From positions 2,170,001 to 2,234,000 of the forward strand of contig NZ_CM001368.1 in assembly GCF_000177215.2 (NCBI RefSeq): a stretch of DNA of 64,000 bases, read 5' to 3'. This stretch comes from Solidesulfovibrio carbinoliphilus subsp. oakridgensis. GTDB taxonomy: Bacteria; Desulfobacterota; Desulfovibrionia; Desulfovibrionales; Desulfovibrionaceae. Of the stretch, positions 13,064-46,503 are shown piece by piece. The notes below the pieces were generated by a model, which was given only the letters and a program-made list of their open reading frames with translations, did not search any database and had not been told where the DNA came from. The position numbers and the translations under genes were made by a program. Position 1 is the stretch's first letter, and each line of letters begins with the position of its first letter.

Positions 13064-13138
13064 AAAAGCGCGCCGCAGGTTCTTCCCCGCTCCCCGGCCT
13101 CCCGCCTGGATTCCGGTCCTCCGGGCCGCCCTCTCTTT

Positions 13139-15431: not shown

Positions 15432-15432
15432 G

Positions 15433-17201: not shown

Positions 17202-17211
17202 TGTCGCGTCC

Positions 17212-26063: not shown

Positions 26064-27173
26064 ATGCTGACGTTCGCCCATTCCACCTATTTCCACGACC
26101 TGCTGGCCAGTTTCACGGCCGGCGTGGTCATCTGCAACGTCCGGGGGCTGGTCTATGCCTCGAACCCGGCCGCCTCGGCCCTGCTCGGGGAGCCGGCCCA
26201 GGCCCTGGCCGATCCGGCCCGGGCCCGGGACATCATCGGCCGGGCCCAAGATCCCCGGGCCCTGGTCCGGTTTCTGGCCGCGCCCATCAAGCACGGCCGC
26301 AAACCCGAGCCCCTCTCCCTGCGCTACCGCCACCCCGACGGCGCGGACCGGCACTTTCGCCTGTCCGGGTCGCTCCTTTTGGAAAACGAGAAGATTTTCG
26401 GCATCCTGATCGAGATCGACGACGTGACGGAGATCCACCGGCTCCACGACCGGGAGCGGGACATGCTCCTTGGCGTCCAGGCCGCGCAACGGGAGCGGAT
26501 CGAGAGCCTCGGCCGGTTCTCCCTGGCCGTGGCCCACCAGATCCGAAATCCCCTCATGGTCATCGGCGGCTTTGCCGGCCGGCTGCTGCGCGGCCGGCCC
26601 CCGGACGATCCCGAGGCCGAAGCCCTGTCCATGATCCTCGACGGGGCCAGGCGCCTCGAAGCCGTGGTCCGGGCCGTCTCCACCTACGCCCGGCGGCGCG
26701 AGGCCGCGCCGGCCATGGTCCGGCCGGCCGACCTGGCCGGCCGGGCCATGGACATGGCCGAGGTCCGCACCGGTCTCCACGCCCCCCTGCTCCTGGACGC
26801 CGGGACCGGGTTTGTCCGGCTGGACGCGGCGCTGACGGTGGAGGCCCTGACCGAGCTTGTGGCCAACGCCCTGGAGGCCTGCGCCCCGGCGGCGGACCAG
26901 CCGATCGCCGTGGCTTTCCGCCGACAGGGGGCGGGGCTTCGCATCGAGGTGGCGGACCAGGGACCGGGCCTGTCCGAGGACATCCGGCCCTTTGTCTTTG
27001 ACCCGTTTTTCACCACCAAGGCCGTCGGCGTCGGCATGGGACTGCCCATTGCCAAACGCAACGTCGAGGAACTCGGAGGCACGCTCACCCTCGAACCCGG
27101 TCCGTCGGGCGGGGTCCTGGCCGTGCTGGCCCTGCCGGACGCCGCCCCTGGCGGCCTCGTGTCGCGTCCCTGA
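26064..27173 (+). CDS. Soluble PAS sensor histidine kinase
   Basis: 369 residues. The frame is open far upstream, but ATG 26064 opens directly on a PAS domain (MLTFAHSTYFHDLLASFTAGVVICN...). PAS covers about 10-125. A linker DRERDMLLGVQAAQRERIESLG leads to the HisKA box with His158 in VAHQIRNPLMVIGG. The HATPase domain has VANALEAC, DQGPGLSEDI and GVGMGLPIAKRNVEELGG. No membrane segments, so it senses a cytoplasmic signal. The HQIRNP kinase core is the type also seen in the globin kinase at 44416. Its last residues (LVSRP) and stop codon are supplied by the hairpin element at 27156-27262. Confidence 0.93.
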   Translation: MLTFAHSTYFHDLLASFTAGVVICNVRGLVYASNPAASALLGEPAQALADPARARDIIGRAQDPRALVRFLAAPIKHGRKPEPLSLRYRHPDGADRHFRLSGSLLLENEKIFGILIEIDDVTEIHRLHDRERDMLLGVQAAQRERIESLGRFSLAVAHQIRNPLMVIGGFAGRLLRGRPPDDPEAEALSMILDGARRLEAVVRAVSTYARRREAAPAMVRPADLAGRAMDMAEVRTGLHAPLLLDAGTGFVRLDAALTVEALTELVANALEACAPAADQPIAVAFRRQGAGLRIEVADQGPGLSEDIRPFVFDPFFTTKAVGVGMGLPIAKRNVEELGGTLTLEPGPSGGVLAVLALPDAAPGGLVSRP

Positions 27174-27262
27174 AATCCTGCATTTTTTCAGGGGTAACCA
27201 TCCCACCTACTTGTCTTCTCGTAAAAAATACCGGCGTATTTTTTGAAGGGTCGCAACACGAG
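27156..27262. repeat. Two-hairpin element with 15-bp terminal inverted repeats
   Basis: A 107-bp element bounded by CTCGTGTCGCGTCCC (27156-27170) and GGGTCGCAACACGAG (27248-27262), complementary at 13 of 15 positions. Inside are an 8-bp-stem hairpin (27168-27193) and a perfect 9-bp AT-rich stem with loop CGGC (27223-27244) whose 22 bases are identical to 13042-13063. It overlaps the end of the upstream kinase gene and lies between convergent genes. It contains no reading frame of note and looks like a small non-autonomous mobile or REP-type element. Confidence 0.82.
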
Positions 27263-27322
27263 GCGCCCGCCGTCCCCGCCACCGACTGCCCGGACCGGAT
27301 CGGGGCGGGTCAAGGCCGGCCG

Positions 27323-27718
27323 CTATTCTTCCAGAAAGGCCGTCTCGCCCCGGGCCGCGACCATGTAGGGCCGGCCCATTTCCTCGAGCATGGATTTGCA
27401 GTGGACGCAGAGCGTGGCGGTCGGCTGGGCCCGGAGCCGGGCCAGGCCGATCTCCTCGCCGCACTCCTGGCAGATGCCGTAGTCCCCGTCCTTGACCCGG
27501 GCCAGGGCCTCGTTGATTTCGCCGATGAGCTGGCGGTCGCGTTCGCGCATGAGGATGGTGAGATGCCGGTCCGATTCGGCCGTGGCCCGGTCGGCCACGT
27601 CGGCAAAGGCGGCCACTTCCCGGGCCAGGACGTCCAGGGTGTCCCGCGACTGGCCGTTTAAAGTTTCGAGCATGTCGCGCAAGACCTGCCGGAACCGATC
27701 CACGTCAAGATGTCCCAT
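27323..27718 (-). CDS. dksA: DksA/TraR-type zinc-finger transcription factor
   Basis: 131 residues. DksA binds in the RNA polymerase secondary channel and works with ppGpp to reset transcription. A long N-terminal coiled coil carries the tip motif DVADRATAESD (about 40-50), corresponding to the Asp-x-x-Asp-x-Ala tip of DksA. The C4 zinc finger is intact (Cys83, Cys86, Cys104, Cys107, with GICQEC and LCVHC). The (p)ppGpp synthetase gene lies about 1.1 kb away at 28862, a suggestive but not operonic proximity. ATG 27718 has a weak GGAGAAAC-like site. Paralogues are common, so it may be one of several. Confidence 0.92.
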   Translation of the reverse strand: MGHLDVDRFRQVLRDMLETLNGQSRDTLDVLAREVAAFADVADRATAESDRHLTILMRERDRQLIGEINEALARVKDGDYGICQECGEEIGLARLRAQPTATLCVHCKSMLEEMGRPYMVAARGETAFLEE

Positions 27719-28021
27719 GGCGTTTCTCCACTGTGCGAAGGGTTGTCAGGGACCCGGCCCGGACGGGGGCTCCCGCGGGGACCGAGCGTTACCCTTGTGC
27801 CTTGGGAAGCTGAAGCCGGGGTGACGGCCGTGTGGAGAGTGCGTGACGGCGGGAAAGGACGGAGAGGCTGGCGGGGCGGCAAAATCTGCCTGGCCCGAAC
27901 CGCAATTTATGGAAAATTCAGTTATTCTAGCCCTGTTTTTGGATGGCAGCCTTCTTGCTTTTCCCCGGGCCATACGGCTCTGTCACACCCAGGAGCCGGA
28001 TCCTGCCGCCCGGAGGCGCAC
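27719..28021. other. 303-bp divergent intergenic region
   Basis: It separates dksA (minus) from the Ala-rich gene at 28022 (plus). An AT-rich stretch near 27905-27945 interrupts GC-rich DNA and is the most likely promoter area for the plus-strand gene. I see no convincing -35/-10 pair and no RNA gene. Confidence 0.4.
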
Positions 28022-28711
28022 ATGGCCACGACCACCACTTCGCCAACCACCAGCGACGTCGCCAATTGGGCCTACCAATACTCGCTGGCCTGCGCCAAGC
28101 TGACGAGCGCCCAGAACAAGGCCAGTTCCTCGGCCACCCGCAGCGCGGACATCACCACGGCCCAGGCGGATTTCAACGCCACCATGAAGAGCCTGGTGCC
28201 GGCCGAGGCCCAATCGAGCGTCCAGTTCCAGTATTTCGACGCCCTGACCGCCTACAACACGAACCTCGGGGCCGCGACTTCGCAGGCCCAGCGCCAGGCC
28301 GCCACCGACAGCCTCAACACCGCCCTTGGCGGCATCACCGTGCCGGCCACCACCACCACGCTGGCGGACGTGGCCGCGGCCAACGCGGCCCAGGCCGCCA
28401 GCGCCGCCGCCGACCTCAAGGCCATGGCCTCCAACGCCGGCGCGGCCTGGGTGTCCGACATGGCCGGCCGGGCCCATTCGTTTAACGCCGCCTCCGCCGC
28501 CACCACCGCCGCCCTCGCCTCCCGGCTGTCCTCCCTCGGCCTGGACCCCTCGGGCCTCACCGCGCCGGCGGTCTCGGTGGCGGCCACCTCGGCCTTCACC
28601 GCGGCCACGGCCGCAGCGGCCACGGGCGGCTCGGCCGGCTCGATCATGAACGCGGCCCTGGTCGGCTCGATCCTGGCCGAGCAAGCCGCGCCGGTCGACA
28701 GTTCCGGGTGA
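28022..28711 (+). CDS. Ala/Thr/Ser-rich protein of unknown function
   Basis: 229 residues from ATG 28022 with GGAGG upstream; an in-frame opening continues to 27710 but looks non-coding. The composition is extreme, with about half of the residues Ala, Ser or Thr. The middle looks helical (ANWAYQYSLACAKLTSAQNKA, SSVQFQYFDALTAYNTNLGAATSQAQRQAATDSL). There is no signal peptide. The C-terminus reads GSIMNAALVGSILAEQAAPVDSSG. It could be a coiled-coil structural or surface protein secreted by a non-Sec route, but that is only composition-based. Own terminator at 28751. Confidence 0.68.
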   Translation: MATTTTSPTTSDVANWAYQYSLACAKLTSAQNKASSSATRSADITTAQADFNATMKSLVPAEAQSSVQFQYFDALTAYNTNLGAATSQAQRQAATDSLNTALGGITVPATTTTLADVAAANAAQAASAAADLKAMASNAGAAWVSDMAGRAHSFNAASAATTAALASRLSSLGLDPSGLTAPAVSVAATSAFTAATAAAATGGSAGSIMNAALVGSILAEQAAPVDSSG

Positions 28712-28750
28712 CCGGCCGGTCCGGCCGCCCCTTTGTCCCAGCCAATTTCC

Positions 28751-28780
28751 AACACCCCGGCCGCAAGCCGGGGTGTTTTG
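28751..28780 (+). terminator. Intrinsic terminator of the Ala-rich gene
   Basis: An 11-bp stem AACACCCCGGC/GCCGGGGTGTT with a 5-nt loop followed by TT (28751-28779). The leading AA and preceding T-poor sequence make it stronger on the plus strand. It also lies past the stop of the convergent RelA/SpoT gene. Confidence 0.88.
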
Positions 28781-28861
28781 CCTTGGCGGGGACCGTTTGC
28801 CGGCAAGGCCGGGCCGGACTGGCGGGGCTAAAGGGCAGCCCGGGGGGCACGGCGCCGGGAC

Positions 28862-31078
<2,217 letters not shown>

Positions 31079-31242
31079 GGCCGGCCCGGCCTCGTCATCC
31101 GGGATGGGGGCTCTTTCCCCTGGTAGGCGTTAAAAACGGCTTCCCCGGGCCGGCGGCCTGCGAGGCGAAAAGACTGCGCCGGACCGACGCGCGGCCCCGG
31201 CCCCCGCAGCGCAAGGGCCAGGGGGCGTGGCCGGCGGCCGGG

Positions 31243-32910
31243 CTACGGTGCCAGGCGAAAGGTCTGCTTGTCCCGGGGAATCCACCACTTGGTGAAATTG
31301 TAGGTGATGCCGGCCGGGGCCACGGCCACATCCTGGAAGCGCGACGACAGGATCGGGAGGGCATAGGGCGCGAAGAGGAAGAGATAGGGCTGGTCCTTGT
31401 GCAGGATCTCCTGGAAGGCGTCGTAGATCTTCTTGCGCTCGGCCTGGTCCACGGTGCGCCGCCCCCGCTCGAGCAGGGCGTCGGCCTCGGGGTTTTTATA
31501 GCCCACGAAGTTGAGCCCGCCGGGAACGGCCCGGCTGCCGTGCCAGACGTCGTAGACGTCCGGGTCCTGGGAGATGGTCCAGCCGAGGACCAGGGCGTCG
31601 AAATTGCCCTTGTCGACGAATTCCTTGATAAAGGAGGCCCATTCCACGGTGCGGATCTCGACCATGACGCCAATGGCCGCAAACTGGCTCTGGATGATGG
31701 TCGCGGCCTTGACCCGCTGGTCGTTGCCCTGGTTGGTCAGGATCGTGAAGCGAAACGGCCGGCCGGAAGGGTCCTCCAGCACGCCGTCGCCGTTTCGGTC
31801 CTGCCAGCCGGCCTCGGCCAGAAGCGACTTGGCCAGGGCCGGATCGAAGGCGTAGTCCTTGATGTCCGTGTCGTACATCCAGGTGCCGGGCTTGTAGGGG
31901 CCGATGGTCGGCAGCCCGAGCCCAAGGAGGGCGCCCTTCACGATATCGTCCTTGTTGACCGCGTGGGCGAGCGCTTGCCGCACCCGGACATCGGCGAAAA
32001 ACGGGCTTTTGAGGTTGTAGCCCAAGTAGGTGTAGGCAAACGACAGGTACTTGAACTTGCGCCAGTCGGCGTCAAAGGCCGGGCCCTTGGTCTGGTAGAG
32101 GTACTGCTGGGGGGTCAGCCCCATCATGTCGATGCCGCCGGCCTTGAGTTCCAGGAACATGGTGGCCGTGTCCGGGATGATCCGGTAGACGACCTGGTCG
32201 ATATAGGGCCGGCCCTCGAAATAGTCGGTATTGACATCGAGGACCAGCCGGCGGCCGGGCTCCCAGGACACGAGCCTGTAGGGTCCGGCGCCCACGGGTT
32301 CCCGGGCGTATTTGGTGTTCATGAGGTCCTGGCCCTCGAGCAGGTGCTTGGGCAGGATGGACCCGGCCCAGGTGACGAGCGACCGGGCGAAGGGCTCGGC
32401 GTAGCGGACCTCGAAGGAGTATTTGCCCGTGACCGTGAAGCTGGCCACGGCCTTGTAGTCCTCGGCGTAGGCGGTGGGGGTCTTGGGGTCGACCATGAGC
32501 TTGTAGGTGAATTCCACGTCCTCGGCCGTCAGCTCCACGCCGTCGGTCCAGCGGATGCCGGGTTTGAGCCAGAACTTGAGGAGCTTGCCGCCGTCCAGAA
32601 CCTCGTAGCGCTCGGCCGCCATGCACTCGAGCTGGATGTCCTTGTCGTAGCGAAGGGGCGAGACGTAGAGGAGGTCGGCCACCTCGTGGGAGGCGGAATC
32701 GGAAGCCAGGGGCGGAATCAGGTTCGACGGCTCGCCGATGGTGGCCATGACGATGCGCCCACCGGGAACCGGCTCGCCGGCCGGGGCCGGCGCAGACTGG
32801 GCCTTGGCCCCGGAATCCGCCTTGGGAGCCGGCGCGGGCTCGCTCTTGCAGCCAGCCAGAACAAGGACCAAGAGGATCAGGCCGTAAATTGTCGCGCGAA
32901 CCGACCGCAT
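31243..32910 (-). CDS. ABC transporter substrate-binding lipoprotein, peptide type
   Basis: 555 residues from ATG 32910, supported by AAAAGGAGAA upstream; the longer frame is not supported. A signal sequence with lipobox LVLVLAGC (Cys20-21 region) shows it is a membrane-anchored lipoprotein, followed by an Ala/Pro/Lys linker. The body belongs to family 5 (DppA/OppA-like): MATIGEPSNLIPPLASDSASHEVADLLY, WLKPGIRWTDGVELTAEDVEFTYKLM, and VNTDYFEGRPYIDQVVYRII are diagnostic. It binds oligopeptides or similar solutes. No permease or ATPase genes are adjacent, so it must pair with components encoded elsewhere. Confidence 0.93.
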   Translation of the reverse strand: MRSVRATIYGLILLVLVLAGCKSEPAPAPKADSGAKAQSAPAPAGEPVPGGRIVMATIGEPSNLIPPLASDSASHEVADLLYVSPLRYDKDIQLECMAAERYEVLDGGKLLKFWLKPGIRWTDGVELTAEDVEFTYKLMVDPKTPTAYAEDYKAVASFTVTGKYSFEVRYAEPFARSLVTWAGSILPKHLLEGQDLMNTKYAREPVGAGPYRLVSWEPGRRLVLDVNTDYFEGRPYIDQVVYRIIPDTATMFLELKAGGIDMMGLTPQQYLYQTKGPAFDADWRKFKYLSFAYTYLGYNLKSPFFADVRVRQALAHAVNKDDIVKGALLGLGLPTIGPYKPGTWMYDTDIKDYAFDPALAKSLLAEAGWQDRNGDGVLEDPSGRPFRFTILTNQGNDQRVKAATIIQSQFAAIGVMVEIRTVEWASFIKEFVDKGNFDALVLGWTISQDPDVYDVWHGSRAVPGGLNFVGYKNPEADALLERGRRTVDQAERKKIYDAFQEILHKDQPYLFLFAPYALPILSSRFQDVAVAPAGITYNFTKWWIPRDKQTFRLAP

Positions 32911-33214
32911 AGTTCTCCTTTTCGCTTGCAACATCCGGCCCAATCGACGTATTGGAGCGAATGCGCAAGGCCTTGTCCCGTTATTCCATATACGGGGCCA
33001 GACGAAATTAAAAGTTCTTTTTCCCCGGCCGCCGGGCTGCAGTCGGCGGGGGTTCGGCCGCCTGGGTCGCGTCGGCAATATTTCCGTTCCAAATCGGTCT
33101 GAAATCCGTTATGTGGTTCGGATAGACCCTCTGCCGCCTGTGCGACGGACCCTTCCCGGTCCGGCCGCCTGCCGGCGGAAGCGTTTTCATGTTCCTTGAA
33201 GGAGTCTTGGGCCC
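32911..33214. other. 304-bp divergent intergenic region
   Basis: It separates the solute-binding gene (minus) from the SNF2 gene (plus). AT-richer patches occur near 32985-33025 and 33075-33125 and are the likely promoter areas. The ribosome site TTGAAGGAG before 33215 is clear. I see no hairpin or further gene. Confidence 0.4.
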
Positions 33215-36200
33215 ATGGCCGCCGGAAACGACAAAACAAAAATCAAGTCCCTGCTGTCGGAGTTCGTCCGGGAGACCATTCCGGAATACATCCTGGACGG
33301 TTCGCATGCCATTGTGGCCGCCGACGGCATCCAGAAACTCACCATCAACCCCCACGAACATTTCTGGGACGTGGAAGGCCAGGTGCAGGGAGACGACTTC
33401 CAGGTCTATGCCTCGGAATTGTCCGTCAATCTCAAAGAAGGAACCATCAATTTCTTCTGCAACTGTCCGGATTCCTTTTCCGGAGTCTGCCGCCACGTCG
33501 GCGCAACGGCGCTCAAGTGGATCCGCAACCTGGACGAGGCCGACGGCGAAGCCCCGGACACCGCCGCCCCGCCGCGCGGCGAATGGCGCCAGACCTTCCG
33601 GACCTATTTCTCCTCGGAACCCGAGCCGGAACCCGGCCGCCACTACCTGATCTTCCGGTTCCACCCCGAGCCGGGCCGGCTGCAGGTGGCCTTTTTCCGG
33701 GCCAGGCAGAACAAGTCCGGCATCTCCCAGGTCCACTCCGAGATCACCCTCGAGCAGATCATCAAGAACCCGGACTGGTCGGAGCTCTCCCCCACCCTGC
33801 CGGTGGTGGCCGAGATGCTCTACCACCACCTGGACTACGCCGGGCACCGGGTGGAGTTGCCGCCGGGACTCTTGGCCTGGTTTTTCTGGGCCATCGGCAA
33901 GGAATACTACCTCTACTGGCGGGACACCGAGCAGCCGGTCCGGATCGAAGCCAAGACCATGCGCCTGCAGCTGGCGCCAAAGCTCACCGAGGACGGGCTG
34001 TCGTTTGACATCCTGCTCGGCAGCCCGGGCAAGAACCCCTTTTCCATCCTCGGCCAGGAGGTCTATTTCTACGGCCAGATGCCGATCTGGGTCTGCTGGA
34101 AAAACGCCTTCTACCCGGTGCAGACGGGACTCCCGCCCCAGCTCGTCTCGGACATGGTCCAGCAGCCGCCGTTCATTCCGACCGCCGACGTCTCCGAGTT
34201 CCTGGACCGGGTCTGGACCCACCTGCCCATGACCGACCTGTACGGCCAGGAGGAATTCCTGGTCAAAATGCAGCCGTTTTTTGTGCCGGCCACCTTTGAT
34301 CCCAAGATCTTCCTGGACGAGGAAGGCAGCCTCCTGACGCTTCAAATCCAGAACGTCTACCAGACCGAGCACGGCGAGATCACGGTCCCGGGCCCCAACC
34401 CCGACCTCATGACCGCCTCCTACCTGCACGCCGGCAAGTCCTATCTGATTGCGCGCGACTGCGACCACGAGCAGACGCTCATCAACATGCTGACCGACAT
34501 GCGGTTTCAGGCCCGAAACAATGCCAACTGGTTCCTGGAGACCGAAGAGGCCATCGTCTTTCTGCTCGACGCCTATCCCAAGCTGGTGGAAAAGTACCGG
34601 GTCTACGGCGAAAAGAACCTGACCCGCTACAAAGTCCGCCTGTCGACGCCGATCATCGTGGCCGAGGTCGAGTCCAAGGAAGAGGAGAAGTGGTTCAACC
34701 TGGACCTGCAAGTCCAGTACGACGACCAGCGGGTGCCGATCGAAAAGATCTGGAAGGCCTGGACCCAGGGCAAGCGGTACGTGCAGTTAAAAGACGGCTC
34801 CTACACCAGCCTGCCCGAGGCCTGGCTCGAAAAGCTGGCCCACAAGCTGCGGGCCCTCGGCTACGACACGGACAAGCCGCCCCAGACCAAGTTCAAGCAG
34901 TTCGAGGCCCCGGTCCTCGACAAGATCCTCGAGGACATGCCCGAGGCCCGCACGGACTCGTTCTGGAACAACCTGCGCCAGAAGATCCACAGCTTCCGGG
35001 AGATCATGCCGGTAAAGCCGCCCAGGGGCCTCAATGCCAGCCTGCGGCCCTACCAGGTCCAGGGCCTGTCCTACCTGAACTTCCTGCGGGAATACGGCTT
35101 CGGCGGCATCCTGGCCGACGAGATGGGCCTTGGCAAGACCGTCCAGACCCTGTCGTTTATCCAGCACAACGTGGAGCGCGGGGCCGGCGGGCCGAACCTG
35201 ATCGTGGTGCCGACCTCGGTTCTGCCCAACTGGGAGCGCGAGGCGGACAAGTTCGTGCCGGAGCTCAAGCAGCTCATCATCTACGGGGCCAGGCGCGAAA
35301 ACATGTTCAAGAAGATCGGCGAGTCCGATCTGGTCATCACGACCTACGCGCTCCTGCGCCGGGACCTCGACGAGCTCTTGAAGTACGACTTCGCCACGAT
35401 CATCCTGGACGAGGCCCAGAACATCAAGAACCCGAACACCATCACGGCCCGGTCCGTGCGGCGCCTCTCCGGCAAGACCCGGCTTTGCCTGTCCGGCACG
35501 CCCATCGAAAACAACCTTTTCGAGCTGTGGTCGCTGTTCGAATTCCTGATGCCGGGTTTCCTCGGCGGCCAGAACGCCTTCCAGCGCGGCATCGTCAAGC
35601 CCATCAAGGACGGGGACGAGGAGACGCTCGACTACCTGCGCGGCCGGGTGCGGCCGTTTATCCTGCGGCGCACCAAGTCCGAGGTGGCCAAGGACCTGCC
35701 GCCCAAGGTGGAAAACGTCTACTACTGCAACCTCCTCGACGAGCAGCTCGAACTCTACGCGGCCCTGGCCAAAAAGCTCAAGGAGCAGGTCCTGGCCACG
35801 GTGGACGAGAAGGGCATGGCCAAGTCGCAGATGTCGATCCTGGACGCGCTCTTGAAGCTGCGCCAGATCTGCTGCCACCCGCGGCTTTTGAAACTCGACC
35901 TGCCGGGTGTGAACACCAACCTGCCCTCGGGCAAGTTCGACGCCTTCAAGGACCTGATCACGGACTGCATCGAGGAAGGCCACAAGGTGCTGGTCTTCTC
36001 CCAGTTCGTGCAGATGCTCCACATCATCCGCTCCTGGATGACCATCAGCCAGATGTCGTTCGCCTACCTGGACGGTTCGAGCAAGGACCGCTTCGACCAG
36101 GTGGACCGGTTCAACGAAGACGAGTCCATCAAGGTGTTCCTCATTTCCTTGAAGGCCGGCGGCACGGGCTTGAACCTGACCAGCGCCGACTACGTCATCC

Positions 36201-36433
36201 ACTACGACCCCTGGTGGAACCCGGCCGTCGAGAACCAGGCCACGGACCGCACCCACCGCATCGGCCAGAAGCGGCAGGTCTTCTCCTACAAGATGATCTG
36301 CCAGAACACGGTGGAGGAAAAGATCCTGAAGCTGCAGGAGCAGAAAAAGGACGTGGCCGAAGCCATCATCCCGGGCCAGGACGCCTTCAAGTCCCTGACC
36401 AGGACCGACCTGGAGTCGCTCTTCGAGGTCTAG
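33215..36433 (+). CDS. SNF2-family ATPase with N-terminal SWIM zinc finger
   Basis: 1072 residues. A SWIM zinc finger lies near residues 82-94 (Cys82, Cys84, Cys92, His94), then a long bacterial SNF2-associated region to about 610. The SF2 core has Walker [13 protein letters not shown], motif [12 protein letters not shown], and a helicase-C half with [26 protein letters not shown] and RTHRIGQKR. Such proteins translocate on double-stranded DNA and may remodel nucleoprotein or RNA polymerase complexes. The bacterial SWIM-SNF2 group has no firmly assigned role. It is single-gene with its own terminator. No methylase or nuclease is adjacent, so a DISARM-type system is not indicated. Confidence 0.93.
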
Positions 36434-36458
36434 CCGGCCACGACGCCACGAACAAACG

Positions 36459-36484
36459 AAAGGGGGCCCCGCGGCCCCCTTTTT
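36459..36484 (+). terminator. Intrinsic terminator of the SNF2 gene
   Basis: A 10-bp stem AAAGGGGGCC/GGCCCCCTTT with a CCGC loop and a T run, 26 bp after the stop codon. Confidence 0.92.
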
Positions 36485-36777
36485 GCTGGCGCATCGCCCG
36501 AGAAGACGGCCCCCTGGCCCACCGGGCCGCGCCGGCCTGGCGACCCGGAATCGGCTCTGCGGAAGCCCCCCGGGCCGGCGGCCTGGCCGTTGTTTTTTGC
36601 CGCATCATCCCAACCTCTTACGCACGGCCACTGCCGCATCAAGAATACCATGGACGCAATTTTGCAAACAACTTTACAAAAATACTGCCATCGAATACGC
36701 TTTTTAATCCTCATACCATCCTATCATCAAGGGACGAAGGGGTCCTCCGCTTCATGATTCCTACCCGGGAGAACGAC
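36485..36777. other. Intergenic region with AT-rich promoter area
   Basis: GC-rich to about 36635, then clearly AT-rich to the chemoreceptor start (for example around 36655-36725). The AT-rich half probably carries the chemoreceptor promoter. The first 600 bp of the chemoreceptor gene is also less GC-rich than its surroundings. Confidence 0.45.
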
Positions 36778-38607: not shown

Positions 38608-38781
38608 CCGGGCCGGAAAACGGCCCGGCGGCAGGAGCCGGCTGTCCCCGCTTGGACCCGGGGCCGCCGGCGCACGGGGCACGGGCGCATTCGTCGCGCC
38701 CGTGCCCCCGCCGACGGCCAGAATCCGCCCCACCCCGGCCCGCGTCTGCCGGCCTCGAAACGTCTGCCCTCCCCCGAAACG

Positions 38782-38819
38782 CCCGAACGCCCGGACGGGG
38801 AACCGTCCGGGCGTTCGGG
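38782..38819. terminator. 17-bp hairpin between chemoreceptor and feoB
   Basis: A perfect 17-bp stem with a GGAA loop (38782-38798 with 38803-38819). It lies 32 bp past the feoB stop and between convergent genes. There is only a short T stretch on the minus side (TTTC), so the terminator call rests mainly on stem strength and position. Confidence 0.7.
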
Positions 38820-38850
38820 AGGCGGGGGCCGCTTGGCGGACGCAAGCCGG

Positions 38851-41037
38851 TCAGGCCAGGGCGCTGCCGATCTGGTAGATGAGGACGGCCACGATGTAGG
38901 CGAAGCCCAGGGCTCCGAAGACCGAAAAGAGCCCCCACTTCCAGTTCGTCTCCTTGGCGATGGCCACCACCGTGACCATGCAGGGCGTGTACAGGAGCAT
39001 GAAGGCGAAGACGGCCAGCACGGCCGGCATGGTCCAGGCCGGATCGGCGGCCAGCTTTTCGCTCAGGGGGTCGGCCTCGTCGGCCGCGACCTCGCCCATG
39101 GAATAGGCCGTGGCCATGGTGGAGACAAAGACCTCCTTGGCCGCGAAGGCCCCGATCAAGGCGATGTTGGCCTGCCAGGGGAAGCCGGCCAGGTTGGTCA
39201 CCGGGGTCAGGGCCTCGCCCACGCGGCCGGCCACGGAATACTTGAGCGCGGCCTCGTTCTGCTCGTCGGAGACGGCCTTCCGGTCCTCTTCGGCCAGTTG
39301 GGCCACGGCCTCTTCGTCGGCCTCGGGATTGGCGGCCTTGACCTTTTCCACCACTGCCTGGCGCTGGGCCTCGTACCGGGCCACCGTGTCCTCGGGCAGT
39401 TCCGGAAAGGTCATGACGGCCCACATGAGGATGGAGACAGCCAGAATCACGGTGCCGGCCTTTTTGATGTACTGCCAGACCCGCTCCCAGGTGTGCAGGA
39501 TGACGCCGCGCAGGGTCGGCAGGCGGTAGGGCGGAATCTCCATGACAAAGGGCGTGCTCTCGCCCCGGATCACGGTCGAGCGCAGGAGCTTTGAGACCAG
39601 GAGCACGAATCCCCAGGCGCAAAGGACCACCAGAAACATGGCCCGGGTCGGGTTGTCCGGGAAAAAGGCGGCCACGAGCATCAGGTAGGCCGTGGTCTTG
39701 GCCCCGCAGACCATGAACGGCGCGGTCAGGATGGTGGCCAGCCGCTCGCGGGGACTGCGAAGGGTCCGGGCGCTCATGACGCCCGGCACGGCGCAGCCGC
39801 CCGGAATGCCGCCCGAAATGATCAGCGGCATGACCGACATGCCGTGCAGGCCGAAAATCCGCAGCACCCGGTCCATCATGTAGGCCACCCGGGCCATGTA
39901 GCCGAGGTCTTCGAGAAAGACGAGCATGAGGAACATGATGCAGATCAAGGGCGTGAAGCTCATGACCGAGCCCACGCCGCCGATGATGCCGGAGACGATC
40001 AGCGACTGGAGATGGCCTTCGGGAATGTAGGCCGTGCCGAGGCCGCTTAACCACTCGAAACCGGCTTCCAGCCACCCCTTGGGATATTCGCCGATGGTGA
40101 AGGTCACCTGGAACATGAGGTAGAGGACGGCCAGCATGATGCACGGCCCAAGGAGCCGGTGGGTGACCACCCGGTCGATGGCGTCGGAGTGGTTGCGCCG
40201 CAGCTCGTCGCCGCCCGCGACCACGCCCTGCTTGAGCAGGCCGTTAATAAATCCGTAGCGCCAGTCGGCGATGATGGCGTCCGGGGTGGTGGCGCTGTTT
40301 TTGAGGGTCACGGCTTCGGCCTCGGCCGTGAGGGCCACGAGCTCGTCGTGGGCCGGGCCGGCCTTTTTCCCTTCAACCATGACCTGTTCGTCGGACTCCA
40401 GGTATTTGACGGCCACCCAGCGCGGATCGTAGCGGCCGGTCAGAAAGCCGGCGTTTTCGATGAGTTGGGTCATCCCGTCGAGGATCGGGTCCAGGTCCGG
40501 GCCGTAGGACAGGCGCAGCGGCTTCCAGACGCCGCCGGTCTTTTTGGCCACGGCGGCCACGGCCTGCATGAGCTCCTCGCGGCCCTGGCCGACGCGGGCC
40601 ACGCAGGGCACCACCGGCACGCCGAGGAGCTTCGAAAGCCGGTCCACGTTGATGGTGACGCCGCTGCGCTTGACCTCGTCCATCATGTTGAGGCCAAGGA
40701 CCAGGGGCGCCCCGATTTCGAGCAGCTGCAGGGCCAGGTAGAGGCTGCGCTCCAGGGCCGTGGCATCGACCATGTTGATGACCACGTCCGGATGCTCGTC
40801 CACGATGACGTTGCGGGCGACGAGCTCCTCCATGGAATAGGAGGTCAGGGAGTAGGTGCCGGGCAGGTCCACCAGATGGCTTATGGTGCCGTTTTGCCGG
40901 TAGGTGCCCTCCAGGCGGTCCACGGTGATGCCGGGGTAGTTGCCGACCCGGGCCGAGCCGCCGGTGATGGCGTTGAACATGGTGCTCTTGCCGCAGTTGG
41001 GCTGGCCGGAAACGGCCACGCGGATGGACTCAGGCAT
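38851..41037 (-). CDS. feoB: Ferrous iron transport protein B
   Basis: 728 residues. The N-terminal GTPase domain has G1 GQPNCGKS, G2 GNYPGITV, G3 DLPGTYSL and G4 LNMMDE. It is followed by a membrane domain with many helices including the gate motifs (SGGIPGGCAVPGVMSARTL, then GAKTTAYLMLV). FeoB imports Fe(II), the main iron form for an anaerobe. Near residue 570 there is an acidic insertion rich in Glu and Ala (VKAANPEADEEAVAQLAEED) between membrane segments. Start ATG 41037 overlaps feoA by 8 bp. A Fur-like site lies in the shared promoter. No FeoC is present. Confidence 0.97.
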   Translation of the reverse strand: MPESIRVAVSGQPNCGKSTMFNAITGGSARVGNYPGITVDRLEGTYRQNGTISHLVDLPGTYSLTSYSMEELVARNVIVDEHPDVVINMVDATALERSLYLALQLLEIGAPLVLGLNMMDEVKRSGVTINVDRLSKLLGVPVVPCVARVGQGREELMQAVAAVAKKTGGVWKPLRLSYGPDLDPILDGMTQLIENAGFLTGRYDPRWVAVKYLESDEQVMVEGKKAGPAHDELVALTAEAEAVTLKNSATTPDAIIADWRYGFINGLLKQGVVAGGDELRRNHSDAIDRVVTHRLLGPCIMLAVLYLMFQVTFTIGEYPKGWLEAGFEWLSGLGTAYIPEGHLQSLIVSGIIGGVGSVMSFTPLICIMFLMLVFLEDLGYMARVAYMMDRVLRIFGLHGMSVMPLIISGGIPGGCAVPGVMSARTLRSPRERLATILTAPFMVCGAKTTAYLMLVAAFFPDNPTRAMFLVVLCAWGFVLLVSKLLRSTVIRGESTPFVMEIPPYRLPTLRGVILHTWERVWQYIKKAGTVILAVSILMWAVMTFPELPEDTVARYEAQRQAVVEKVKAANPEADEEAVAQLAEEDRKAVSDEQNEAALKYSVAGRVGEALTPVTNLAGFPWQANIALIGAFAAKEVFVSTMATAYSMGEVAADEADPLSEKLAADPAWTMPAVLAVFAFMLLYTPCMVTVVAIAKETNWKWGLFSVFGALGFAYIVAVLIYQIGSALA

Positions 41038-41269
41038 CTTGGCACGCCTCCACGGAAATATACTCGGCCTCGCCGTTTCGCAGCGACAAGGTGAATCCCT
41101 TCATGCGCACGGCGACCGGATCGGTCAGGGGCGCGCGGCCGACCACCATGAACTCGGTGCCGGGAACGAGCCCCATGTCCCGGATACGCCGCCCCATCTC
41201 GCCGCAGGCCGTGACCGCACGGATGCAGCCCTTCTGGTTGACGGCCATCTTCCGCATCGAAATCACCAT
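41030..41269 (-). CDS. feoA: Ferrous iron transport protein A
   Basis: 79 residues from ATG 41269, chosen for AAAGGAG upstream; the frame extends further but without coding character. The sequence is an SH3-like FeoA domain (KGCIRAVTACGEMGRRIRDMGLVPGTEFMVVGRAPLTDPVAVRMKGFTLSLR). FeoA is a small cytoplasmic partner needed for FeoB function. Internal ATGs at codons 5 and 8 are possible starts. It overlaps feoB by 8 bp, so the two are coupled. The leader from the predicted promoter is about 170 nt. Confidence 0.94.
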   Translation of the reverse strand: MVISMRKMAVNQKGCIRAVTACGEMGRRIRDMGLVPGTEFMVVGRAPLTDPVAVRMKGFTLSLRNGEAEYISVEACQDA

Positions 41270-41444
41270 GACAAGTCTCCTTTGAAAAACCGTTGCGAAC
41301 CGCGGCGCGCCGCGGCAGGCGTTCCGCCTTCGACTGTACGGACCAAGCGGACGTCCCGTCCCGGACGTGTCCCGGACGCGCGCCGCGTTTGCAGGCAAGG
41401 GATCGCGCGACAGGGCCTTCGGGCCCGGGGCCGCGCAGGAAGAG

Positions 41445-41473
41445 ATGTAAATGAAAGTGAATATCAGTGTCAA
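41445..41473 (-). promoter_or_regulatory. feoAB promoter with Fur-like box in the spacer
   Basis: On the minus strand, -35 TTGACA (41473-41468) and -10 TTACAT (41450-41445) are 17 bp apart. The spacer contains, on the plus strand, TGAAAGTGAATATCA (41452-41466), which matches the 7-1-7 Fur consensus TGATAATNATTATCA at 11 of 14 fixed positions. Binding there would block polymerase, as expected for iron-repressed feoAB. Confidence 0.68.
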
Positions 41474-41790
41474 GTTTCAATCGCGGCATGGCCGTTAAAA
41501 AACAGCCCGGGCCGCAAGGGGCCACGGGGCGCAGGCGACGGGCGGCGGCCAGGCCAAGCCAAGCCAAGCCAAGCCAAGCCAAGCCAAAAGGCCGTGGCGG
41601 GAACCGGACGCGGACGCAAGGGGAAAAGGCCCTGGCCCCGGGAAGGGGCGCCAGGGACGCCGGGCAAAAGGTGAGGCGGGGCAGCGGTGGTGTCCTCGGC
41701 CGCGGGCCAGGCCGGGACGCGGTCCGGTCCGACGGCCGGCAGGCCGGGGAGCCGGGAGTGCGGGGGAAAGGCGGGAAAGGCCGCCCCAGC
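41474..41790. other. Intergenic region between feo promoter and small gene
   Basis: GC-rich DNA with open frames on both strands that look like composition artefacts. Its only clear structure is the pentanucleotide array at 41553-41587. Confidence 0.45.
41553..41587. repeat. Pentanucleotide array, seven GCCAA units
   Basis: Seven perfect tandem GCCAA units. Such arrays gain and lose units by slipped-strand mispairing. It lies 80 bp behind the feoAB -35 box and outside any gene I can support. Confidence 0.9.
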
Positions 41791-42075
41791 TCAGACCAGG
41801 GGGCAGAAGGCGCCGGCCGCGACATGGCCGGCCATGGAGCCGTCGTCGGCGGACTGGCCGGCGGCGTCGGGGCCGGCGCCGCCGCAATCGCCCTGCCGCA
41901 ACCGGTCGCGGAGCACTCCGGCATTGGAACGGGCGATGCCCTGGGCGGTCATCATGTCCTTGAGATCGTGCCGCCGGGAAAATCCCAGGCGGACGTTGCC
42001 GCCGCCGTCCAGGTAGACCCGGCAGCACAGCCGCTCCACCAGAAAAAGCAACGGATCCTGACAAACATCCATCAT
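41791..42075 (-). CDS. Small protein of unknown function
   Basis: 94 residues from ATG 42075 (or 42072), preceded by GGGGGAG. The first half looks like real protein with two adjacent Cys (VERLCCRVYLDGGGNVRLGFSRRHDLKDMMTAQGIARSN). The second half is Gly/Asp/Ala rich and less convincing, ending VAAGAFCPLV. No signal peptide or recognised domain. It is in the same direction as the next gene upstream (42622) with about 100 bp between. Confidence 0.5.
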   Translation of the reverse strand: MMDVCQDPLLFLVERLCCRVYLDGGGNVRLGFSRRHDLKDMMTAQGIARSNAGVLRDRLRQGDCGGAGPDAAGQSADDGSMAGHVAAGAFCPLV

Positions 42076-42178
42076 GACTCCCCCAACCCCTGGTTAGCGG
42101 TTTTGGAACAGCGGGAACAGTCAGAATCAGGTCACGACTTATATGTCAATCGTAACACCGGAGCAAATGAAAGTTTCG

Positions 42179-42622
42179 TCATCCGGCCAGGCGGTCCGAG
42201 GCGAGGGCGGCCAGGGCCGCGAGCAAGGAATCGACATCCCGGAAGGTTTTGGCGCAGGAGCATTCGACCATGCAGTTGACCAGGGAATGGGCGGTGTCGC
42301 CGGCCCCCCGGAAATCCGTGCGCAACCCCCAGGCCGGGAGGCCCCGGGCATAGGCGTAGCCGACTTCCCAGGCCGTGCCGTCGTCCACCTGGGGGCCGTC
42401 GAGCACGGCCACGACCAGATCCGAGGCCTGCAGTCCGGCCACGCAGCCCGCAAAGATGTGCTCCTTGGCCCCGGCCCCCAGGGCGGCCAGGTCGTGGTCC
42501 GCGAAAAAATCGCCCGGCCAGGCCGCGGCCACGCCGGGCAGGCCCCCGGCCAGGTCGCGCAGGTGGGCCATGAAACGCCGTTCGGCCAGGGTGAAAAGCG
42601 GTCCCGCGAGATAGACGCGCAT
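42179..42622 (-). CDS. Nucleoside 2-deoxyribosyltransferase-like protein
   Basis: 147 residues from ATG 42622. The sequence opens MRVYLAGPLFTLAERRF, the classic N-terminus of the nucleoside 2-deoxyribosyltransferase family (YLAGP motif). It continues with a DLVVAVLDGPQVDDGTAWEVGYAYARGLP segment, in which the D-G-T-x-x-E-x-G pattern supplies the catalytic Glu and the Asp near the deoxyribose. In known members these residues exchange the base of deoxynucleosides or hydrolyse deoxynucleoside monophosphates. Length fits. The ribosome site is weak (GGAG 8 bp upstream). Confidence 0.86.
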   Translation of the reverse strand: MRVYLAGPLFTLAERRFMAHLRDLAGGLPGVAAAWPGDFFADHDLAALGAGAKEHIFAGCVAGLQASDLVVAVLDGPQVDDGTAWEVGYAYARGLPAWGLRTDFRGAGDTAHSLVNCMVECSCAKTFRDVDSLLAALAALASDRLAG

Positions 42623-42867
42623 TGAGGGCTCCGATGGGAGGGGAAATCGAGCCGGAAGGCCGGCGCGTTGGCGCGACGATAGCCCGCAAGGCCCCGGCCG
42701 GGCAACTCCCGTCCCGACTCCCGGCTTGACCGCTGGCACGGGATGGTCTAACCACAAGACCGTCGTGATCGTACTGATCCCCACGACCCTCTCACGGCCG
42801 CGTCCGTCCGGGCGAGGCCGATGTTGTTGGTTTTTCCCGACAATCCAACCGATTTTAAGGTATGACG

Positions 42868-43356
42868 ATGGAAAGCATCCCTATTACTGTTGAAGGCTTC
42901 AGGCGGCTCGAACGCGAACTGGAACGGCTCAAGAAGGAGCGGCCGGCCATCATCCTGGCCATCAAGGAAGCCCGCGAGGAAGGCGACCTGCGCGAGAACG
43001 CCGGGTACGAAGCCGCCCGCGAACGCCAGGGCATGCTTGAAGCCCGCATCAATTTCATCGAATCGCGCATGCCGCGCTTCAACGTCATCGACCTTTCCAC
43101 CCTCGGCGGCGACCAGGTCATCTTCGGGGCCACCGTGGAAATCGAGGACGTGGATACGGGCGACATCAAGAAATACACCCTGCTCGGGCCCGACGAGGCC
43201 GAACCGAGCAAGGGCTCCATTTCCATCCTCTCGCCGGTGGGCCTGGCCCTGCTCGGCAAGTACGAAGGCGACGAGATCGTGGTCGACGCCCCGCGCGGCA
43301 AGATCAACTACGAGATCGTGTCCATCACCTTCAACGGCGTCCCCGACCCTTCCTGA
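42868..43356 (+). CDS. greA: Transcription elongation factor GreA
   Basis: 162 residues from ATG 42868; an in-frame ATG at 42862 is only 1 bp from the AAGG site, whereas 42868 is 7 bp away. GreA inserts a coiled coil into the RNA polymerase secondary channel and stimulates cleavage of backtracked RNA. The N-terminal coiled coil has the acidic tip EEGDLRENAGYEAARERQ with the required Asp and Glu. The C-terminal FKBP-like domain reads IFGATVEIEDVDTG, then GSISILSPVGLALLGKYEGDEIVVDAP. It is followed by a hairpin at 43376. Confidence 0.96.
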   Translation: MESIPITVEGFRRLERELERLKKERPAIILAIKEAREEGDLRENAGYEAARERQGMLEARINFIESRMPRFNVIDLSTLGGDQVIFGATVEIEDVDTGDIKKYTLLGPDEAEPSKGSISILSPVGLALLGKYEGDEIVVDAPRGKINYEIVSITFNGVPDPS

Positions 43357-43375
43357 TCCTTTTCCCCGATCCAGT

Positions 43376-43411
43376 GCCAAGGCCCCGCCGCGCCTGCGGC
43401 CGGGCCTTGGC
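43376..43411 (+). terminator. Hairpin downstream of greA
   Basis: A 10-bp outer stem GCCAAGGCCC/GGGCCTTGGC plus a 5-bp inner stem after one C-C mismatch, 20 bp past the stop. The T tail is poor (GTCTCTCG), so confidence is moderate. Confidence 0.65.
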
Positions 43412-43449
43412 GTCTCTCGTGCCCGGCGTTCCGTCTCCAGTTCCGCGCC

Positions 43450-43545
43450 CCGGCCGCAGCCGCGGGTAAAGACGCAGCCGTTGCCGTCCTTGTCGTAGCA
43501 GCCGCCGCAGGAAATGCAGGCGCTCGCTTCCCCGTCCCCGGGCAA
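43450..43545 (-). other. Possible remnant with CxxCxxC motif
   Basis: The minus-strand frame reads CISCGGCYDKDGNGCVFTRGCG, resembling the Cys-rich loop of flavodoxin-like iron-sulfur flavoproteins and FMN reductases (CxxCxxC then DKDGxCVF). Upstream and downstream of it the frame has no family features and runs into the antisense of greA, and no ribosome site is present. It may be a degraded gene fragment; chance is also possible. Confidence 0.25.
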
Positions 43546-43655
43546 GGCGGCACTTTCGCGTGTGCCGGTTTCCCGGGGCAGGCCGGGGCCGCAAAAAAGC
43601 CCGGCCCCCGAGCGGACCGGGCCCTGACGGCCGCAGGCCGACCGTGGCCGGCCGG

Positions 43656-44153
43656 TCAGGACGCGGCGGTGGCGGCGCCGAGGGCGGCCTGCAGCTTGCC
43701 CTCGTCCTCGTGGGACAGCGAGGTCTGGAGCACCCGGCCGCCCGTGCCCGACAGTTCGGCCAGGACCTTGTCCGCCGTCATCTTGCGGATGAGGACGAAA
43801 AGGACCGATGTGCCGGGTTGGAGGGTTTCGGCCAGCTTTTTCATGAAATCGTCGTCAATGCCGACGTCGGAGAGGGCCCCGGCCGTGGCCCCGGCCCCGG
43901 CGCCGACCACCGCGCCGAGAATCGGGTTCAGGAAGATAAGCCCGATCAGCGCCCCCCAGAAGCCGCCACCGATGGCCCCGGAAGCGGCCAGGTGGTACAT
44001 CTGGCTGAGCTTGACCTTGCCGTCCTGCTTTTTGACGGCAACCACCGCGTCCTCGAGATCGACCAGGTATTCCTTCTGCATCTTGAGGAGTTTGAGCCGC
44101 ACCTCTTCCGCCTTGAACATGTCGTCATAGCCCACAACGATCAGATCGCTCAT
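43656..44153 (-). CDS. DUF1269-type membrane protein
   Basis: 165 residues with a good ribosome site (AAGGAG) before ATG 44153. The N-terminal part MSDLIVVGYDDMFKAEEVRLKLLKMQKEYLVDLEDAVVAVKKQDGKVKL is typical of the DUF1269 family. It is followed by a Gly-rich membrane hairpin (ASGAIGGGFWGALIGLIFLNPILGAVVGAGAGATAGAL) and a C-terminal soluble part with the characteristic GIDDDFMKKLAETLQPGTSVLFVLIR. Function is unknown; the glycine pattern suggests tight helix packing or oligomerisation in the inner membrane. Confidence 0.92.
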   Translation of the reverse strand: MSDLIVVGYDDMFKAEEVRLKLLKMQKEYLVDLEDAVVAVKKQDGKVKLSQMYHLAASGAIGGGFWGALIGLIFLNPILGAVVGAGAGATAGALSDVGIDDDFMKKLAETLQPGTSVLFVLIRKMTADKVLAELSGTGGRVLQTSLSHEDEGKLQAALGAATAAS

Positions 44154-44415
44154 ACACGCTCCTTGGTGGCAGGTTTCGCGCGCCCCGGACCGGGGCGGGA
44201 TTCGCTTATCCTCTACTGTCGCATTTCTTCCGGTTTGGCAACCGGTTCAACCCCGGCACCGGTCCGGGCGCCCGCCCCTCCCGGCGCCGGACCGGCCAAG
44301 GTCCCCGTGCGCCGACGACAACCTTTCCACAGGCCGCAAAGCACGGTATGGCTTGGCGACTGGCCCTCGCCGCCCCCTGCGGGCGGCCCCCCAACGTCCG
44401 ACCCGGGAGGCATCC

Positions 44416-45582
44416 ATGCTCCTCTCCGACATCCCCACCGAGCGCCTGCGCCGGTTTCGCGAGCTCCTTGGCCTCTCCGAACTGACGGAAAACCCGCTGG
44501 CCCGGTGGGCCGGCACCCTCGGGGCCGACCCCGAGGCCTTTGCCGACCGCATCCAGGCCTTTGTGCTGGAGATGCCCCAGCTGCGCATCGTCCAGGAGAA
44601 CCTGCCCGACCCGGCCAAACTGCGCCGCAACTGGGGCGAATGGTTTTCCGGGCTCTTCGCCCGGGGCCTTGGCGACGAACTCTTGACCCGCCTGTGGCGC
44701 AGCGGCCAGGCCCACGTGGCCTACAACGTGGACCACCGGCTCATCAGCACCGCCTACGCCCTGGCCCGGGCCTATCTGCACGAACGGGCGGCCGGGGAGG
44801 TTCCCGTCCTGGAGCTGGCCGGGGCCCTCCGGTCCATCGACGCCATGGTCGATTTCAGCCTCCTGGTCGAGACCGACGCCTTTGTCACCTTTGCCACGCG
44901 GTGCGAACTGGAAGTCATCCAGGGCCTGGCCCACCAGGTCCGCAATCCCATCGCGGCCATCGGCGGCCAGGCGAGGCGGCTTTTGCGGCTACGCGGCCAG
45001 GATCCGGACGTGGCCGCTGCGGCCCAGGTGGTGCTGGAGGAGGCCGTGCGCCTGGAGGGGCTGGCCCGGTCCGTCACCCGCTACATGGATGCCACCGAGC
45101 GCGAGCCGACGGCGGCGGCCACCCCGCTCGCCCCGGTCCTGTCCGAGGTCCTGGCCCGGGTCAGGACCCTGCCCGGCGCCGAGGCCACCGCCGTCACCGT
45201 CGCCATCGCGCCGGAAACCGCGGTCATGGCCATGGCCCGGCCGGACCTCGATGCCCTGCTCGCGGCCCTACTCGACAACGCCTTCCGCTACGCCGCGCCC
45301 GAGGACCCGCGCGTCACCATCCACTGCGGCCCAAGCGACGGCCGCCCCGGGTACGCGGTCCTGACCATCGACAACACCGGCCAGACCCTGACCGGCGAAG
45401 AGCTGACCAGCATCTTCAGCCCCTTCCATTCGAGCGAGCCCATGAACACGGGCATGGGCCTGGCCATGGCCAAGACCATCACGCGCAAGTACTCCGGCGG
45501 CATCAGCATGGGCCTGCTCCAGGGCGGCACCCGTTGCGCCGTCACCCTGCCCCTGCCGGCGGAGGAACCTGCATCGGCCTAG
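44416..45582 (+). CDS. Globin-coupled sensor histidine kinase
   Basis: 388 residues from ATG 44416 (GGGAGG upstream). Residues about 5-160 form a globin-coupled-sensor (protoglobin-like) domain: LRIVQENLPDPAKLRRNWGEWFSGLF and then GQAHVAYNVDHRLISTAYALARAYL, in which His100 is the expected proximal haem ligand. The kinase core has phosphoacceptor His173 in LAHQVRNPIAAIGGQ and a HATPase with LLDNAFRYA, a weakened G1 (DNTGQTLTGEEL) and G2 GMGLAMAKTI. It should sense O2, NO or CO through haem and signal to an unlinked regulator. No membrane segments. The 262-bp space upstream shows no clear promoter. Confidence 0.87.
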   Translation: MLLSDIPTERLRRFRELLGLSELTENPLARWAGTLGADPEAFADRIQAFVLEMPQLRIVQENLPDPAKLRRNWGEWFSGLFARGLGDELLTRLWRSGQAHVAYNVDHRLISTAYALARAYLHERAAGEVPVLELAGALRSIDAMVDFSLLVETDAFVTFATRCELEVIQGLAHQVRNPIAAIGGQARRLLRLRGQDPDVAAAAQVVLEEAVRLEGLARSVTRYMDATEREPTAAATPLAPVLSEVLARVRTLPGAEATAVTVAIAPETAVMAMARPDLDALLAALLDNAFRYAAPEDPRVTIHCGPSDGRPGYAVLTIDNTGQTLTGEELTSIFSPFHSSEPMNTGMGLAMAKTITRKYSGGISMGLLQGGTRCAVTLPLPAEEPASA

Positions 45583-45881
45583 GAAGAGACGGAAAAAGCG
45601 CGCCGGCGGCCAACGGGGTGGCGAGGGGCCGGCCCTTGGGGTCCCTGCCGCCCTCCCTCGCGGACACGGTGGCATTGCCTGCTTTTCCCTTGTGTTGCAA
45701 CACAGGAACGGCCGGCCGGGGGGAGCCGCCGTGCGACGCCGGCCCGAGGCCTGGACCGCCCGATGCAAACGCGAGGGGCTTTTTTCCAGAAACCGCTTGC
45801 CAAGGTTTTCCAGGCCTTTTATTTTCGGGGAAACTTGTCCCTGAAACCTCGGGCCGTCCCCGAAAACGCACGGAGTCTTCC
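45583..45881. other. 299-bp intergenic region with short palindrome
   Basis: No gene. A perfect 14-bp palindrome TGTGTTGCAACACA lies at 45691-45704. Its halves match the ends (GTGTTGC and GCAACAC) of the hairpin elements, so it could be a collapsed copy. The rest is GC-rich without other signals. Confidence 0.5.
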
Positions 45882-46343
45882 ATGAAACGACTGCCGCTCG
45901 TCTGGTTGTGCCTTGTCCTGTGCTGTTTGCTGCCCGCCGCCGCCCTGGCCGAAGAACGCGGCTCCAAGGAGGAGGCCATGGCCATGGTGCAAAAGGCCGT
46001 GGCCGCCATCAAGGCCGATGGCCAGGAAAAGACCTTTGCCGCCATCAGCGATTCCAAGGGACCGTTTGTCGACCGCGACCTGTATGTCGTGGTCTACGAC
46101 CTGCATGGCAAGTGTCTGGCCCACGGCGCCAATGCCAAGCAAATCGGCCGGGACCTGACCGAGCTTCGCGACCCGGATGGCAAGTTCTTCATCAAGGAAC
46201 GGATCGAACTGGGCAAGGCCAAAGACAATTTCTGGCAGGACTACAAATATTTAAATCCCATGACCAAGCTGATCGAACCCAAGTCCATGTACATGGAAAA
46301 GACCGGCGACCTCCTGGTCGGCTGCGGCATTTACAAGCCCTAG
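45882..46343 (+). CDS. Exported single Cache-like sensor domain protein
   Basis: 153 residues from ATG 45882 (CGGAGTC upstream). The signal peptide ends at ALA-E (about residue 23). The mature chain fits a single Cache domain: [63 protein letters not shown], then a closing [18 protein letters not shown]. Periplasmic stand-alone Cache proteins probably bind small ligands such as carboxylates. A chemoreceptor gene follows 160 bp downstream with a hairpin element between, suggesting a binding partner, though this is inference. Confidence 0.85.
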
Positions 46344-46450
46344 TGTTGCGGCCCTTGAAAAACACACCCGTGTTTTTCAAGGAAAAAACAATCATCTTCG
46401 GCAGCTATCCCTTGGAAAAGGACATCCTTTTCCAAGGGACGCGACACGAG
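46343..46450. repeat. Two-hairpin element, best-preserved hairpins
   Basis: GTGTTGCGGCCC (46343-46354) and GGGACGCGACAC (46436-46447) are complementary at 10 of 12 positions. Inside are two perfect 13-bp hairpins with 4-nt loops: 46353-46365 with 46370-46382, and 46409-46421 with 46426-46438. The element begins at the last base of the stop codon of the Cache-like gene. Hairpin sequences differ from those at 27156, but the layout and ends are the same. No coding capacity. Confidence 0.82.
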
Positions 46451-46503
46451 GCCGCCCCCGGCTGGCGCATCCGGCGCTCCACAACAAACCCTGCGAGGTT
46501 GCC

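Follow-up and report, generated by a model that had tools for sequence, protein, structure and literature searches.

The window, i.e., the whole stretch of 64,000 nucleotides analysed here, carries three copies and some remains of a family of small repeats, two of them at the ends of long open frames (24351-27173 and 43560-46343). The features are the following, with positions counted within the window.

12987..13083, minus strand: family relic of 97 bp (E 1e-5), with hairpin 1 kept and another body
15431..15529, plus strand: diverged copy C of the putative MITE, 99 bp as drawn, with the stop codon TAG at 15429-15431
17199..17213, plus strand: solitary end-like sequence TAGTGTCGCGTCCTC, at the stop codon of a called gene
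27159..27259, minus strand: copy A of the putative MITE, 101 bp, with both target copies CTC/GAG
27171..27173, plus strand: TGA within copy A, which ends the upstream open frame 24351-27173 (from the ORF list and the sequence)
46341..46342, plus strand: TA of the CTAG target of copy B (from the sequence)
46343..46447, plus strand: copy B of the putative MITE, 105 bp, GTGTTGCG...CGCGACAC, with two hairpins of 13 and 14 bp
46448..46451, plus strand: GAGG, the presumed decayed second target copy of B

Paired ends had been placed at 27156 and 46343 by the original prediction, and both good copies (A and B) have them beyond chance: the pattern GTGTYGCG-N70-100-CGCRACAC has 2 matches in the window, against a mean of 0.00 over 100 dinucleotide shuffles. 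The limits had to be corrected to 27159-27259 and 46343-46447, since the outer bases included earlier belong to the target site. With another copy of the genome (L001) as BLAST query, A, B and C are matched at E-values of 7.6e-10, 4.9e-9 and 1.2e-10, respectively. The diverged copy suspected near 15433-15529 is hence a family member, refined to 15431-15529, and the fragment proposed at 13042-13063 does derive from the family, but is only a part of the 97-bp relic at 12987-13083, which was outside the training set of the covariance model described below. Copy A is oriented opposite to B and C. The three copies are 99-105 bp long (the median over 124 copies is 103 bp) and contain no transposase gene. 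All elements had also been said to start at or near a stop codon, which holds for B and C, as both start at a TAG (46341-46343 and 15429-15431), but not for A, where the TGA lies inside the element. The TAG stop of the frame 43560-46343 is made of the TA at 46341-46342 and the first G of copy B. The GAGG after copy B presumably reflects a change of TAG into GAG, i.e., A>C as seen from the element end. Separately, a direct repeat of 300 bp with 77% identity links 37941-38240 and 47676-47975 within the ORFs 34690-38607 and 46504-48282; it encodes a putative chemoreceptor signature.

The repeat family is real and has tens of copies in this genome. BLAST with L001 returned 42 matching pieces at E<=1, including A, B and C, the weaker of which are partly palindromes matching on the opposite strand. 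A covariance model built from 15 copies of the genome, with A, B and C included, gave 30 matches with 31 candidates scored and 61 with 150 scored, and both counts include some single copies hit on both strands; among the matches listed for the 150, at least 44 distinct places can be told apart, 4 of them hit on both strands. This search, which the original prediction had suggested, has found further copies in relatives as well: 18 of 119 genomes have matches, namely all 14 of the genus (this one included) and 4 others of the bacterial family, and the remaining 101 have none. Each of the other 13 genus members has 3 to 31 matches. At the gathering score of Rfam the sole match in the window is a tRNA, so that the element has no Rfam family, and we have found no description of the repeat family in the open-licence part of PubMed Central. 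In G007 (L152; cf. L066 of G009), a second, different family member seems to lie at the right-hand copy of the target of an older one, since the end of the left flank of L152 resembles that of a family member; this would be a tandem insertion. Another dispersed palindromic repeat, around GGACCCGCCGGGGGGATTATCCCCCCGG, was met in the right flank of L080 in G005 (query 2080-2160) and has dozens of matches in G005, G007, G009 and G012.

As to the structure, two hairpins with 4-nt loops had been described for each element. This is correct for copy B (z -8.65 against shuffles), whose predicted hairpins have stems of 13 and 14 bp and loops of 4 nt, but not for copy A (z -3.5), where only one hairpin is found as described (10 bp, 4-nt loop); its other hairpin, CCCTGAAA/TTTCAGGG, would enclose a loop of 10 nt and is absent from the predicted minimum fold. 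Copy C folds with a z of -2.41, and a 52-base piece of the 13042 fragment, with a z of -0.68, folds no better than shuffles. Among the 15 copies of the genome, 91.3% of the cells are paired, compared with 46-57% when the pairing is slid. Compensatory change, which had been named earlier alongside module exchange, is only partly borne out by these copies: they have 11 doubly changed cells, where shuffles give 4.5 ± 1.8 (0/500), but their total of 6 doubly changed pairs is reached in 51 of 500 shuffles and is not significant. In several members (L016, L018, L022, L023, L026 and the window relic at 12987-13083) the ends or hairpin 1 are common to the family and the inner parts are others, including a GTTCTCGAAATTCG hairpin and TTTTTAATGCAACAC, the latter resembling an inverted end. 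Judged by their sequences, these mixed inner parts look as if modules had been exchanged.

Empty orthologous sites were sought with joined flanks, and 16 insertions were aligned to relatives. A single CTAG is present in at least one relative at 6 of the 16 (L067, L077, L078, L150, L154 and L158), and the filled counterparts read CTA[G...C]TAG or CTC[G...C]TAG. For L150 and L158 the CTAG is empty in all three relatives, and for L077 and L154 the other relatives read TTAG. Another 5 of the 16 are empty but not CTAG (L066, L072, L087, L151 and L160; the readings met among these sites are CTTG, CAAG, CTAA/TCAG, CTCG and CTGA). Another 4 are unclean: the orthologue of L070 holds a shortened copy, and L068, L080 and L084 align poorly. 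L165 is ambiguous and was not counted: two relatives have CTAG there, but the TGTCGCGTCC after it may be a solitary end or the result of three substitutions. The alignments indicate that insertion duplicates the TA of a CTAG target, which is what the comparison with empty sites, proposed along with the original prediction, has yielded. The orthologues of the sites in the window are diverged: the 9 loci aligned for B show no family member around the joint, and the 3 for A are too far diverged for a statement. For the site of C, 1 of 13 loci (L329, in G006) carries another family-like element behind the corresponding stop codon, the downstream sequence of the other 12 having been partly inspected; this suggests an independent insertion at the end of that gene. 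Solitary end-like sequences at CTAG (17199-17213 in the window; L368 and L365) are perhaps the remains of deleted elements, and those of L368 and L365 are equally explained by three substitutions.

We have further looked for an autonomous partner. Matches to DDE_3 (IS630-type) occur in 4 of the 14 genus genomes, this genome not among them, and 2 of the 4 loci, L130 (G010) and L131 (G011), sit between CTAGTGTTGCGTCC and its inverted copy; the other two (G005 and G009) have no such ends. The L130 element is 1,123 bp long (931-2053) and encodes a transposase of 346 aa, which scores 236.7 bits with the IS630 model NF033545 (cut-off 100) and 90.1 bits with DDE_3 (cut-off 28.6). It is bordered by CTA + GTGTTGCGTCC... 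and ...GGACGCGACAC + TAG, and L131 ends on the right with ...GGACGCAACAC + TAT, its flanks being CTA and TAT. Since the two elements align over 928-2055 (89% identity) but their flanks do not, the ends of the IS630 element are fixed by this comparison. Ends of the form CTAGTGTTGCGT are common to several more distant IS630 elements, and the IS630 relatives L229 and L230 have different ends. By eye, only about 12-20 end bases are shared between the MITE and the IS. This genome yields 0 matches to DDE_3 (E<=1e-5) and 0 to the L130 protein (E<=1e-30). With no detectable partner transposase, the copies in it are probably stranded. An L130-type protein is likewise missing from G005, G007, G009 and G012, where the youngest copies are found. 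At L226 and L240, an IS630 element lies inside the middle of a palindrome, with GTTGTGGGTCTAG on both sides.

Overall, we consider it very likely, from sequence comparison, that the repeats are IS630-associated MITEs, which would have been moved in trans into the TA of CTAG with duplication of this TA. The original idea of small non-autonomous elements is well supported by the many copies, the empty orthologous sites, and the autonomous relative with the same ends. The elements would be gene-less units of ~100 bp with IS630-type terminal inverted repeats, GTGTYGCG(T/A)CC. The ends, the target and the TA duplication can be read from the comparison, and the movement by cut and paste and the IS630 transposase as its enzyme are deduced. 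The rebuilt CTAG would restore a TAG stop on both sides, survivors would collect at gene ends, and the TA used by the stop codon would be retained as the spare one decays.

The link to stop codons follows from the target. The first base of the element is G and its last is C, so CTAG is rebuilt on both sides (C-TA-[G...C]-TA-G), together with any TAG stop. A preference of IS630 for the TA in CTAG was reportedly the subject of a paper by Tenzen and Ohtsubo in 1991, to go by its title. CTAG is scarce in the window, with 24 occurrences against 205 expected from base composition and 62.5 from trinucleotides. By a crude calling of 48 genes, 9 of the 24 are stops, and this calling missed at least the stop of the gene before copy B. 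As CTAG is scarce and often a stop, the counts suggest that surviving insertions collect at stop codons. At least one TAG end closes an open frame of >=78 codons in 91 of the 123 copies whose flanks are long enough, or in 87 of 110 once the copy set is cleaned, and part of this is background, since off-frame controls are open for >=78 codons in 175 of 492 cases. A paired comparison is cleaner: where CTA and CTC ends stand opposite each other, the CTA ends close such a frame in 31 of 36 and the CTC ends in 10 of 36, and the 31 and the 10 are unchanged after cleaning of the copy set. The insertion sequence of L130 lies within a gene-like frame, so stop codons are not the sole target.

The flanks were compared in 124 copies with at most two end mismatches. 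They are CTA/CTA in 29, CTA/CTC in 37, CTA/other in 36, and other combinations in 22; with 13 misplaced or odd-length copies removed, the numbers are 29, 37, 31 and 14 (n=111). The median distance to the young consensus is 9 for CTA/CTA (n=29), 19.3 for CTA/CTC (n=37), and 28.1 for CTA/other (n=36), an age order in which subfamily and age are mixed, as the consensus was hand-written from the subfamily of G005, G007, G009 and G012. These flanks bear on the suggestion that the repeats are substrates of a REP-associated transposase, i.e., REP/BIME-like units moved as single strands by a RAYT and inserted after CT. The repeats are palindromic and near genes, Y1_Tnp is matched in 8 of the 14 genus genomes, and the 37 copies of 124 that combine a CTA with a CTC flank are as CT^[CGTGT...ACACT]AG predicts. 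Nevertheless, CTAG stands at both ends of most copies nearest to the young consensus; on this ground, with the same mixture of subfamily and age, we have rejected that CTC...TAG junctions arise by single-strand insertion. Moreover, this genome is without a Y1_Tnp match at E<=1e-5, 0 of 15 Y1_Tnp loci have an element end within one mismatch, and the TA duplication and an IS630 element with the same ends exist. With ends, target and partner all of IS630 type, a RAYT origin is highly improbable.

For the IS630-associated MITEs, it seems that the TA copy serving as a stop is kept and the other decays, mostly by A>C. With orthologues collapsed, the single changes opposite the CTA end in 106 insertions are A>C 29, T>C 5, A>G 5, T>G 4, A>T 2, C>T 1 and T>A 1, and 13 are multiple. 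In the flanks of orthologous copies at 12 sites, 91 changes of the A/C type stand against 250 transitions. We have asked whether CTAG is generally mutable in this way, using an alignment of G009 with G005 (178,281 sites), in which CTAG was counted from both genomes. Of 108 counts, 62 are 31 conserved sites counted twice and 46 differ, of which 16 read CCAG or CTGG, 5 CTCG (at least one of them at an element end) and 0 CGAG. CTAG elsewhere thus changes mostly by transitions, and general CTAG mutability was rejected as the cause. The element borders, with 29 A>C and 4 T>G against 10 transitions, differ from CTAG in the genome (Fisher p 3e-5, the one element-end CTCG left out), so the A>C bias belongs to the border. 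One orthologous set combines CTA in G005 (L087) and CTC in G007 (L163) with CTCG at the empty site in G009, so that no fixed timing or direction can be given to A>C. Such a preference is not predicted by IS630 transposition. It is rather unlikely, yet conceivable, that an element-linked process turns the spare TA into TC at the base touching the element and locks the element in place; candidates would be cleavage by the transposase followed by faulty repair, or a processing event at the base of the hairpin, and the change would remove a TA flank presumed to be needed for excision.

The evolution of the folded parts was followed in 18 comparisons of orthologous copies at 14 sites. Changed positions make up 3.5% of both the ends (14 of 396) and the hairpin-1 stem (15 of 425), against 9.0% of the linker (40 of 443), 14.7% of the second arm (73 of 496) and 27.8% of the loop (20 of 72). 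The linker differs from the ends and from the stem with a Fisher p of about 0.001, and the stem differs from the second arm with p 4e-9. The slower stem change agrees with selection for the fold once the element has inserted, or else with unequal mutation, and the folded element would be a possible structured 3' end for the host. Such later use in mRNA stability or termination, which is compatible with an origin as MITEs, has in our opinion a modest chance of being correct. The slow ends and hairpin-1 stem are in its favour, but comparisons made within one site depend on each other, part of the contrast could come from a mutable loop or from unequal mutation, the young subfamily pairs its second arm weakly, and copies are gained and lost between close species. 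In addition, a scan for canonical terminators, i.e., a G+C-containing stem followed by a T-run, gives 25 terminator-like sites in 26600-46550 (copy C and the relic lie outside this range) and at none in A or B, which speaks against the proposal that the elements double as terminators. The same scan bears on a simpler account, that these are ordinary intrinsic terminators whose likeness is chance or convergent. Hairpins with T-runs 3' of genes would agree with this, but ends and body are conserved in tens of copies and the unoccupied orthologous sites refute it as the origin, so that we give it practically no chance.

By analogy, the IS630-associated MITEs are RUP-like in kind. According to PMC2229807 and PMC3049150, RUP, which goes with IS630-Spn1, is a 107-bp gene-less repeat with IS630-like ends and a TA-containing target, tightly folded with its ends paired. 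In those accounts, however, RUP belongs to another host phylum and inserts in or near IS elements, rather than at CTAG, often a stop, as here; furthermore, this genome has no transposase for the present family, and the likeness drawn here is one of description. Correia/NEMIS of Neisseria, also likened by description, is in PMC2229807 about 107 or 155 bp long with terminal inverted repeats and a terminal TA. IS630 and ISY100 are described in PMC2170065 as moving by cut and paste into TA, which is duplicated, and unlike the MITE family they carry their own transposase. MITEPsy1 of Pseudomonas syringae is similar in its 100 bp and its insertion at CTAG or YTAA, but according to PMC3189936 it duplicates a 4-nt target, has other ends, and is likened to ISPsy2, listed as 'IS5?'.

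Taken together, the family offers a clear case for small transposons gathering at gene ends, where a rebuilt CTAG is also a rebuilt stop and insertion should carry a low cost. Comparing filled with empty sites among closely related species provides a way to trace how MITEs age, and it bears both on the one-directional change of a flank base and on whether the host may retain the hairpins.
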